Of a DNA stretch of 64,000 nucleotides, positions 8,329 to 11,794 are shown piece after piece. The translations under genes and the position numbers were made by a program. Under the pieces are notes generated by a model. It did no database searches and had not been told where the DNA came from. It worked only from the letters and a program-made list of their open reading frames with translations. Within the stretch, counting starts at the first letter, position 1, and each line of letters starts with the position of its first letter. Origin of the DNA: Caldicellulosiruptor naganoensis. Its GTDB lineage: Bacteria > Bacillota > Thermoanaerobacteria > Caldicellulosiruptorales > Caldicellulosiruptoraceae. Location: the NCBI RefSeq assembly GCF_026914285.1, contig NZ_CP113864.1, positions 1,209,001 through 1,273,000 on the forward strand, read 5' to 3'.

Positions 8329-9242
8329 ATATTTACAACAGGATTCTAAAAAGAAATGATACACCAGTAGTGGCTTTAGGTTTTTTTGATGGTTTTCACG
8401 TAGGACACAAGAAAGTATTTGAGGTTTTAAACTTAAATGCTAATCGGCGTAGAAAAGTTGTTTTTACATTCAAAAATCACCCTGACAAACTGCTTGGACT
8501 CGACCTTAGATATATCCTTACAAATAGTGAAAGATTAGAATTTTTTGAAAAGCATGGGATCGAAGATGTATATTTTATTGAATTCACAAAGGAGTTTATG
8601 CAAATAGATAAAGATAGATTTATTAAAGAGATTTTGATTGAAAAACTAAATGCTGGTTTAGTAGTGGTGGGATATGATTTTACATTTGGTTATAAAGCAG
8701 AGGGAAATAGTGAATATCTCTGTAAAAAACTTAAAGACTATGGCAGAGAGTGCATAGTAGTAGACCCTGTAACATGCAACGACCAAGTTGTATCAAGTAC
8801 TCTTATTCGAAATTTAATAATGAATGGGAATATTCAGCTTGCAAACTCAATGTTAGGTTACAATTTTTTCGTAAATGGAATTGTTAAAAAAGGGAATAGA
8901 ATTGGCAGGAAGTTAGGATTCCCCACCCTTAATATACGGTTTGACAAAAACAAACTCGTACCCAAAAGAGGAGTGTATGTTACAAATACTATTATTGACA
9001 GCAAAAGATATATATCCCTCACAAACGTAGGCTTCAATCCTACAGTGTCAAAAACCCAGAGTATAAAGATAGAAACACATGTTTTGGATTTTGAGGAAAA
9101 AATGTATGGTAAAAAGATTAAGATAGAGTTTATTGATTTTATACGCGAGGAGAGAAAATTTGAGAGCTTGCAAGAGCTGAAAACTCAGATTGAGAAAGAT
9201 ATAGAATATGTAAAAGCTTTATTTTGCAAAGCAACTCTATAG
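8325..9242 (+). CDS. ribF: Bifunctional riboflavin kinase / FAD synthetase
   Basis: Phosphorylates riboflavin to FMN and adenylates FMN to FAD. N-terminal nucleotidyltransferase domain (residues ~1-165) shows the HxGH site GFHVGH (His25 and His28) and SSTLIR; the C-terminal riboflavin-kinase domain (~175-300) shows KGNRIGRKLGFPTLNI and GVYVT. 305 residues, normal. ATG 8325 overlaps the truB stop. This closes the operon before the separate rpsO promoter. Confidence 0.96.
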   Translation: MNIYNRILKRNDTPVVALGFFDGFHVGHKKVFEVLNLNANRRRKVVFTFKNHPDKLLGLDLRYILTNSERLEFFEKHGIEDVYFIEFTKEFMQIDKDRFIKEILIEKLNAGLVVVGYDFTFGYKAEGNSEYLCKKLKDYGRECIVVDPVTCNDQVVSSTLIRNLIMNGNIQLANSMLGYNFFVNGIVKKGNRIGRKLGFPTLNIRFDKNKLVPKRGVYVTNTIIDSKRYISLTNVGFNPTVSKTQSIKIETHVLDFEEKMYGKKIKIEFIDFIREERKFESLQELKTQIEKDIEYVKALFCKATL

Positions 9243-9268
9243 ACATCGAAGAAGATTTTTGCTACAAT
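9240..9268 (+). promoter_or_regulatory. Promoter of rpsO
   Basis: -35 TAGACA (9240-9245), 17-base spacer, -10 TACAAT (9263-9268). It starts in the ribF stop codon, so rpsO can be transcribed independently of the upstream operon, with a leader of about 88 bases. Confidence 0.65.
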
Positions 9269-9282
9269 ATGCTATGTGTTAA

Positions 9283-9353
9283 CCTGAATCCTTGTTAGAG
9301 GATGCTCCCAGCCTTTAACAAAGATTCAGGCATTTATAAAGGAAAGGGAGGTG
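9283..9353 (+). promoter_or_regulatory. Structured rpsO leader, candidate S15 autoregulatory pseudoknot
   Basis: Bases 9283-9301 pair with 9312-9330: outer stem CCTGAATC/GATTCAGG, inner stem TTGTTAGAGG with CCTTTAACAA (one G-U pair), one C-A mismatch between. The 10-base loop (9302-9311) contains CTCCC (9305-9309), exactly complementary to GGGAG (9346-9350) of the rpsO Shine-Dalgarno sequence. Loop-SD pairing would make an H-type pseudoknot hiding the ribosome-binding site, as known in principle for E. coli rpsO. Pairing is seen; the regulation is inferred. Confidence 0.6.
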
Positions 9354-9362
9354 TGAAAAGTA

Positions 9363-9629
9363 ATGCTCACAAAAGAACAAAAGCAGGAAATAATCAGAAA
9401 ATTCCAACTTCATGAATCTGATACAGGTTCTCCAGAGGTACAGATAGCTCTTTTGACAGAGAGAATAAATAGGCTAAACGAGCATTTGCAGATTCATAAA
9501 AAAGACTTTCATTCGAGAAGAGGCCTTTTGAAGATGGTAGGTCAGAGAAGGAAGCTTCTTAACTATCTAAAGAAGTATGACATCAACAGATATCGTGAAC
9601 TAATTGAAAAATTAGGACTGAGAAAGTAA
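9363..9629 (+). CDS. rpsO: 30S ribosomal protein S15
   Basis: Primary-binding protein of the 30S platform that contacts the 16S rRNA central three-way junction and bridge B4. 88 residues, standard length, with the family signature [19 protein letters not shown] and the [18 protein letters not shown] helix. ATG 9363 follows a strong AAAGGGAGGTG. Monocistronic promoter and leader upstream; a terminator hairpin sits between it and pnp. Confidence 0.98.
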
Positions 9630-9642
9630 AATCACAAAAAAG

Positions 9643-9670
9643 TGGAGCGGTATAGCCGCTCCATTATTTT
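9643..9670 (+). terminator. Hairpin between rpsO and pnp
   Basis: 8-bp perfect stem TGGAGCGG / CCGCTCCA (9643-9650, 9656-9663), loop TATAG, then TTATTTT. Probably a partial terminator, since pnp starts 18 bases later and has no promoter of its own that I can see. Confidence 0.75.
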
Positions 9671-9688
9671 AGAGAGAGGTGATTGAGT

Positions 9689-11794
9689 TTGGAAAGTAAA
9701 ATCTACAAAATGGAACTTGCCGGCAGAGAACTTAGTTTTGAAATTGGAAAGTATGCGCTTTTAGCAAACGGAGCAGTTTTGGCAAGGTATGGTGATACAG
9801 CTGTTTTAGTAACCGCTTGTGCTTCAGAAAAGCCAAGAGAGGGTATAAACTTTTTCCCGTTAACGGTTGATTACGAAGAGAGACTTTATTCTGTAGGGAA
9901 GATTCCTGGTGGTTTTATCAAAAGAGAAGGAAAACCTTCTGAAAAGGCAATTTTGTCTGCAAGGTTAATTGATAGGCCGATACGTCCTCTCTTTCCAAAA
10001 GACTTTTACCATGATGTATCTGTCATTGCAACAGTTTTATCAGTTGACCCTGACAATCCACCTGATGTTTTAGCTATGCTTGGATCATCAGTTGCTCTAT
10101 CAATATCTGATATTCCATTTGAAGGTCCAACTGGTTCAGTGCTTGTGGGATATGTTGATGGAAAGATTGTAATTAATCCTACAGCAAAGGAAAGGGAAGT
10201 CAGCAAACTGCATCTTGTTGTCTCTGGTACAAAAGATAAAGTTATGATGATTGAAGCGGGTGCTCAAGAGATTCCAGAAGACATAATGCTTGAAGCTATA
10301 ATGACTGCTCAAGAGGAGATTAAAAAGATTGTTGAGTTTATAGAGGGAATAGTAAAAGAAGTTGGGAAACCAAAGATGCAATATGAAAAAAGGATTGTTC
10401 CTGAAGAGATAAAACAGAAAGTAAGAGAACTTGCATATGAAAAGGTATATCAATATATTCAGATACCTGACAAGATAGAGAGGGATAAAAAACTTGACGA
10501 ACTGAAAGAAGAAGTTTTTAAAGCATTTGAAGGCGAATCAGAAGACACGCTTCTTTTGGTTGACGATGCTCTTTACAACTTAGAAAAAGAGATTGTTCGA
10601 AAGATGATTGCTGAAGAAGGTAGAAGACCTGATGGAAGAAAGTTTGACGAAATCAGACCTTTATATGCTGAGGTAGGAATTTTACCAAGAACACACGGCT
10701 CTGCCCTTTTCAAAAGAGGTTATACACAAGTTCTAACAGTTGCAACGCTTGGAACAAAGAGTGAAATGCAGTTTTTAGACGGTCTTGAGGAAGAAGAGGC
10801 AAAAAGGTATATGCATCACTACAACTTCCCACCATATTCAACAGGGGAGTCAAAGCCAGTGAGAGGACCCGGCAGAAGAGAAATAGGTCATGGTGCTTTG
10901 GCAGAAAGGGCACTTGAGCCTGTTATACCATCAGAAGATGAGTTTCCATACACTATACGACTTGTGTCAGAAGTTTTGACATCAAACGGGTCAACCTCTC
11001 AGGCAAGCGTTTGTGGTAGTACGCTTGCATTGATGGATGCGGGTGTTCCTATAAAGGCACCTGTTGCAGGTATTTCAATTGGTCTTATTACAAAAGAGGA
11101 CGGTAGTTTTATCACACTTACCGACATCCAAGGGATAGAAGATTTCTTTGGCGATATGGACTTTAAAGTAGCTGGAACGCGAGAAGGTATCACTGCTATT
11201 CAGCTTGATATAAAAATTCATGGTCTTACAAGAGAAATAATTGAAAAAGCGTTGTATCAAGCAAGAGAGGCAAGACTTAAGATTTTAGATTTTATGCAGA
11301 CTGTGATTGACAAACCTAGAAGTGAACTTTCACCGTATGCTCCAAAGATATTCAAAACTACAGTTGATCCTGAAAAAATTCGCGACATAATAGGTCCTGG
11401 TGGCAAAATGATTCACAAAATCATTGCAGAGACAAACGTAAAGATTGATATAGAGCCAGATGGTAGAATATTTGTAGCTGCACCTGATGATATCTCAGGA
11501 AATAGAGCAATTAGCATGATTGAAGGCATAGGCCGTGAGATTGAGGTAGGACAGTTCTTCTTAGGTAAAGTTACACGAACAGCTTCTTACGGAGCATTTG
11601 TTGAGATATACCCAGGTAAAGAAGGACTTGTACACATTTCCCAGCTTGACAACAGAAGATTAAAGTCGGTTGATGAGGTTGTGAAGGTTGGAGACCTGGT
11701 GTTAGTAAAAGTAATTGGAATTGACAAACTTGGGAGAATTGCACTTTCTCGAAAAGAAGCTTTAAATGTCACATATTCGCGCAGGGCAAAATAA
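9689..11794 (+). CDS. pnp: Polyribonucleotide nucleotidyltransferase (PNPase)
   Basis: Phosphorolytic 3'-5' exoribonuclease and degradosome partner. Two RNase PH domains (residues ~10-225 and ~310-545) joined by the all-alpha PNPase domain, then KH ([14 protein letters not shown] region) and S1 ([28 protein letters not shown]). 701 residues, normal. I choose TTG 9689: AGAGAGGTG at 9673-9681 is spaced 7 bases, while an in-frame TTG at 9683 would touch the SD sequence. rpsO-pnp is a conserved pair. Confidence 0.97.

Follow-up and report, generated by a model that had tools for sequence, protein, structure and literature searches.

Whether the leader of rpsO in Caldicellulosiruptor naganoensis is a switch through which ribosomal protein S15 could control its own synthesis is the question raised by a hairpin in the window, the whole 64,000-nucleotide stretch of DNA analyzed here. 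The gene itself (9363-9629 on the + strand, with its ATG at 9363) is an open reading frame of 88 amino acids that matches the S15 family PF00312. The first-pass annotation had described, upstream of it, a hairpin with 19-nt arms, CTCCC in the loop and a complementary GGGAG in the Shine-Dalgarno (SD) sequence 36 nt downstream, and direct reading confirms this to the base. On the + strand, the 5' arm (CCTGAATCCTTGTTAGAGG, RNA CCUGAAUCCUUGUUAGAGG) spans 9283-9301 and the 3' arm (CCTTTAACAAAGATTCAGG, RNA CCUUUAACAAAGAUUCAGG) spans 9312-9330, with 18 of 19 positions paired, one mismatch (C9291-A9322) and one G-U pair (G9298-U9315). The arms enclose a 10-nt apical loop (ATGCTCCCAG, RNA AUGCUCCCAG, 9302-9311, + strand) that carries CUCCC at 9305-9309, and a 15-nt linker (9331-9345, + strand) leads from the stem to the complementary GGGAG (9346-9350, + strand), which lies within the SD AAAGGGAGGTG (9343-9353) upstream of the rpsO ATG. 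In RNAfold predictions of 9243-9400, the hairpin is present in both the MFE and the centroid structure (z = -2.25 against shuffles). Folded alone, it has a calculated energy of -23.8 kcal/mol at 37 C and -7.7 kcal/mol at 70 C, so that by calculation it remains folded at 70 C. A likely rpsO promoter (TAGACA, 17 nt, TG-TACAAT; 9240-9268, + strand), scoring 10/12 in a consensus scan, has a -10 region that is conserved among the genus leaders; since it ends at 9268, the transcript would start just 5' of the hairpin, likely about 7-8 nt before it. Beyond the gene, between rpsO and a pnp-like open reading frame (9683-11794), lies a terminator-like hairpin (GGAGCGG-TATAG-CCGCTCC followed by ATTATTTT; window 9641-9672), which the scan reports on the - strand and which is terminator-like on the + strand too; a role in separating the expression of pnp from that of rpsO is possible.

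By itself, the loop match in this one sequence is weakly suggestive, because at least 5 nt complementary to the SD core occur in 1.9% of random window 10-mers, and 12% have such a match somewhere in the 23-nt SD region. Relatives were therefore compared. Within the genus (12 genomes, comprising the window's own 2.49-Mb genome and 11 other species, with S15 of the window as query), the hairpin and the SD GGGAGG are kept in 12 of 12 genomes, and the loop reads AUGCUCCCAG in all except L002 (AUACUCCCAG). The genus stem contains one double compensatory change, from T9296-A9317 to C-G (U-A to C-G in the RNA), and the sister genus (L013) has the loop AGACUCCGA and the SD AUAGGAGGUGA.

Beyond the genus, rpsO leaders were gathered from named genomes, from the class of the window and then from the phylum. 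These leaders have a common architecture, consisting of AACC, a 19-pair hairpin, a 9-nt loop, GG(G/C)GAU, a linker of about 15 nt and the SD, with a family consensus of GCUAGG/CUUGGC in the middle of the stem and a loop ANNCUCCGR closed by CG/CG. An earlier covariance model (R1), derived from 108 leaders aligned directly with MAFFT, contained no pairs and was left unused. RNAalifold found no pairs in the MAFFT alignment because the stems were misaligned by single bases, a problem solved by basing the model used here (R2) on an ungapped seed alignment of 36 Firmicutes rpsO leaders, all from outside the window's order. The stem of this seed shows double changes at 15 of its 19 pairs and a covariation score of 0.444, compared with 0.168 for shuffled alignments and at most 0.154 for slid partners. 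Double changes are also found at 16 of the 19 pairs in 87 further distinct leaders, in an alignment that was fitted to the model.

R2 matches the window at 9279-9359 with 43.4 bits (E 8e-9 in the window), the only significant match in that genome (the next reaches 18.4 bits), and it scores the genus and sister-genus leaders at 38-46 bits, with the sister genus at 46.3. Across the phylum, 311 of the 398 Bacillota genomes contain matches, almost always a single one each, and these lie directly 5' of rpsO wherever their coordinates were compared with the positions of the S15 (PF00312) gene. Leaders of Geobacillus-like genomes, whose S15 shares 92% identity with a query sequence taken as S15 of G. 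stearothermophilus, reach 46 bits. The near-invariant C-G (model 12-44) and G-C (model 16-40) pairs of the family are present in the window as C9290-G9323 and G9294-C9319, and the window leader, like the others of the family, lies directly upstream of rpsO, extends to the SD, forms a single hairpin of about 19 pairs and carries an SD-complementary loop. Detection by R2, together with the match of R2 to the leaders of the Geobacillus-like genomes, places the window leader, on sequence comparison, in the Firmicutes (Geobacillus-type) family of rpsO leaders, of which it is a diverged member. The first-pass annotation had instead likened it to E. coli entrapment transferred to a clostridial setting. 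RF00114, the E. coli S15 family, has no match in the window at the gathering threshold or at E up to 5, and searches of Rfam at gathering and relaxed thresholds return nothing relevant for the window leader. Homology with the E. coli leader is rejected on this Rfam result, and it is the Firmicutes leader model that recognizes a homologue here. As a separate observation from the same survey, the S15 gene was not found by protein or Pfam search in one genome of the same class (G035, 100% complete), nor by Pfam search in G131, which reflects either an assembly gap or true loss.

The pairing of loop and SD was assessed in a set of 140 leaders whose mutual identity stays below 80%. Before alignment, another thirteen loci had been discarded as unlike the leader or unusable, and seven leaders were left out, namely one with a wrong start (L040), three without a recognizable hairpin (L180, L189, L216) and three without an apical loop (L112, L113, L135). 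The choice of start codons favoured starts with an SD, which might overstate how often an SD is present but would not improve the match between loop and SD. A CACC loop without CUCC occurs in 41 of the 140 leaders, and GGUG is found in the SD of all 41; a CUCC or CCUC loop occurs in 98, and all 98 have GGAG in the SD. Read from the SD side, all seven SDs without GGAG are accompanied by CACC loops, and none of the 25 SDs without GGUG is accompanied by a CACC loop without CUCC. Informative leaders thus split 7:0 against 0:24, with a probability of 1 in C(31,7), or about 4e-7, by arithmetic that ignores relatedness; this strong signal is carried by about 30 leaders, some of them related, in a family whose SDs vary little. 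Pairing length between each loop and its own SD exceeds that in reshuffled combinations (z 4.2; 0 of 20,000 SD reshuffles reach the observed value), and pairing energy behaves likewise (z -4.1; 2 of 20,000). Loops pair only modestly better with their own SD than with a swapped one (4.84 vs 4.62 bp); SDs are always constrained to 16S rRNA, so that loops resembling the anti-SD fit most SDs regardless.

A second set of 88 leaders (A3) was picked by model score and is therefore biased toward canonical forms, which makes it a weak replication: its 13 CACC loops all occur with GGUG, its 74 CUCC loops all occur with GGAG, and none of its eight SDs without GGUG has a CACC loop. The sole A3 loop with neither motif (L311, AAUCCCGC) faces the SD GGGGAGG, with which UCCC:GGGA is possible. 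In addition, a fifth pair follows the same pattern. The loop has a C after CUCC in three unrelated lineages (the window genus; L033/L318; L323), and the SD partner of this base is G in 3 of 3 such lineages, compared with 4 of 109 elsewhere (Fisher p 1.5e-4). Among Bacillus-like leaders, CUCC loops accompany the SD GGAGGAA (L346-L348), relatives with the SD GGAGGUGA mostly have CACC, and L349, with the SD GAGGUGA, has kept a CACC loop. Collectively, these comparisons indicate that loop and SD changed together in evolution, as expected of a base-paired switch. The compensatory change of loop and SD among relatives that the first-pass annotation had looked for is borne out by the 7:0 against 0:24 split and by the fifth pair, with the caveats of kinship and of little-varying SDs; its description of an rpsO leader with an SD-pairing loop stands on this co-change, whereas its E. 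coli-like picture does not. The f47 family (L112, L113, L135) keeps the AACC...GGCGAUU hairpin with a short apical part that has no SD-complementary CUCC or CACC. These leaders may represent a natural loss of the loop-SD switch, and they count against universality of the pairing.

The leader is probably the S15 feedback operator of the genus, a diverged Geobacillus-type leader that would combine a step contacted by S15 with an S15-stabilized loop-SD helix blocking the 30S subunit. When S15 is in excess over 16S rRNA, it would bind the hairpin at a non-Watson-Crick step and at the loop-SD junction, and the bound protein would stabilize the CUCCC:GGGAG helix, leaving the SD unusable for 30S subunits. 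When S15 is scarce, the anti-SD would outcompete the 5-bp loop-SD pairing and translation would proceed. Simple duplex energies, calculated without a pseudoknot penalty, are -9.9 kcal/mol at 37 C and -4.4 kcal/mol at 70 C for loop:SD, against -7.3 kcal/mol at 70 C for anti-SD:SD; loop:SD is thus the weaker duplex at 70 C, and ribosomes would be expected to win without S15. The linker of the window equals the family median for CUCC-type loops (15 nt), and by a geometric estimate such a linker could in principle span the 19-pair helix, about 53 angstroms.

The part of the hairpin that S15 would touch is suggested by comparison with relatives. According to published work, S15 contacts a three-way junction and, some ten pairs from it, a GU/GC step (PMC4684408). 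Among leaders of the family, model pair 13-43, which lies ten pairs below the loop-closing pair and adjoins the nearly invariant C-G, is U-G in 80 of 98 relatives, G-G in 14 and Watson-Crick in only 2, so that the GU/GC motif is usual, not defining, for the family. The G-G leaders have the contexts GCGAGG/CUUGGC and GCGCGG/CUGGGC. The only stem mismatch of the window, C9291-A9322 (+ strand), coincides with this pair, and A-A is found there in much of the genus; the strict GU/GC motif (U-G next to C-G, 5'-CU/GG-5') is accordingly absent from the window (C-A) and from the genus (C-A or A-A). A protonated C-A pair is shaped like U-G, and A-A is not. The non-Watson-Crick step kept at pair 13-43, one helical turn below the loop, is presumed to be the S15 contact. 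On the protein side, S15 of the window has the Geobacillus-type residue at five of six positions that PMC4684408 reports as distinguishing Geobacillus from E. coli S15.

A different route to the same block of the SD would be direct binding of S15 to the hairpin and the conserved C-rich loop, as a three-way-junction-like mimic of 16S rRNA, with steric exclusion of the ribosome and with the loop-SD match as a by-product. Phylum-wide conservation of the loop motif CUCCGRCG would agree with such binding, as would the existence of one family (f47) without loop-SD complementarity. The literature also describes the operator of Bacillus and Geobacillus as a three-way junction carrying a GU/GC motif rather than as a pseudoknot (PMC4684408, PMC8470358, PMC10931766), and in selected RNAs S15 bound near the SD is enough for regulation (PMC5100602). 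However, protein contact alone would not predict that the loop register tracks the SD register, that the fifth pair co-varies or that L311 combines UCCC with GGGGAGG, and this explanation is unlikely.

Much less probable is an entrapment pseudoknot of the E. coli type, in which the 30S subunit binds and is then trapped by S15. The pairing of a loop with a downstream segment does have the H-type pseudoknot topology of E. coli, and mycobacterial leaders likewise use a pseudoknot (PMC8470358). However, RF00114 has no match here, and the window SD itself is part of the pseudoknot helix, so that a 30S subunit could hardly dock while the helix is formed, whereas the E. coli pseudoknot embraces the SD and start codon in its loop region (PMC10931766). 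Sequence alone does not separate SD occlusion from ribosome entrapment; for the Bacillus/Geobacillus type, what has been published speaks rather for competition with ribosome binding (PMC10931766). For the window leader, we infer pairing of loop and SD in the RNA, binding and stabilization by S15, and occlusion rather than entrapment. A generic 5' hairpin serving mRNA stability or attenuation, stable and near the likely transcript start as this one is and with a single-sequence chance of a loop match of 2-12%, is the least probable explanation of all, as no U-tract follows the leader hairpin (the terminator or attenuator signature is thus missing) and homologous hairpins with conserved positions in stem and loop lie 5' of rpsO in most Bacillota genomes.

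With the S15-stabilized loop-SD helix as the preferred reading, the known can be set apart from the new. The S15 leader family itself is known, and the window element is a further member of it. It is possible, and we put it forward tentatively, that the loop-SD pseudoknot is a phylum-wide, undescribed part of the Firmicutes S15 operator, in which the "third helix" would be the SD paired to the loop and the register (CUCC, CACC or CCUC) would co-evolve with the SD; Firmicutes, E. coli and mycobacterial leaders would then all be pseudoknots. A one-off observation thereby becomes a testable statement about a widespread regulator without an Rfam 15 match, namely that loop and SD form a base-paired switch and that its register moves along with the SD. 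Should loop-SD pairing be missing from the published three-way-junction model, such pairing would explain how S15 bound far up the hairpin blocks the SD, and it would supply a model with which the rpsO leaders of most Bacillota genomes could be annotated.

Among known S15 leaders, the Geobacillus rpsO leader is the closest point of comparison, and it is reportedly the subject of Scott & Williamson 2001 (J Mol Biol 314:413). Its G. stearothermophilus / G. kaustophilus form (Gk-mRNA) is a validated example of the family (Slinger et al. 2014, 2015; PMC4137082, PMC4684408), and the former paper states that all characterized S15 leader structures encompass the SD (PMC4137082). The window leader resembles it in its rpsO context, in a 19-pair hairpin bounded by AACC...GG, in a presumed recognition step a helical turn away from the loop junction and in the inclusion of the SD. 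However, the window has C-A (and the genus also A-A) in place of the U-G of the GU/GC step, both the consensus GCUAGG/CUUGGC and the loop-flanking CG...CG are replaced, and the loop has 10 nt rather than 9, the extra C pairing with an extra SD G. The literature sets the Bacillus/Geobacillus three-way junction against the E. coli pseudoknot (PMC8470358, PMC10931766). The window leader shares with the E. coli rpsO pseudoknot (RF00114) its place in front of rpsO, a hairpin loop that can pair downstream and, by analogy, a probable role in S15 autoregulation, but it differs in having no sequence or structure match, a different stem and an SD that itself forms a pseudoknot strand. Mycobacterial leaders also contain a pseudoknot in the rpsO 5' UTR, one that is required for S15 repression (PMC8470358); it lies upstream of the initiation site, whereas that of the window includes the SD. 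The Thermus thermophilus rpsO leader, described as a three-way junction fold, is reported to have a G-G mismatch in place of GU/GC (PMC4684408), and G-G likewise occupies the equivalent step in 14 of 98 Firmicutes leaders.
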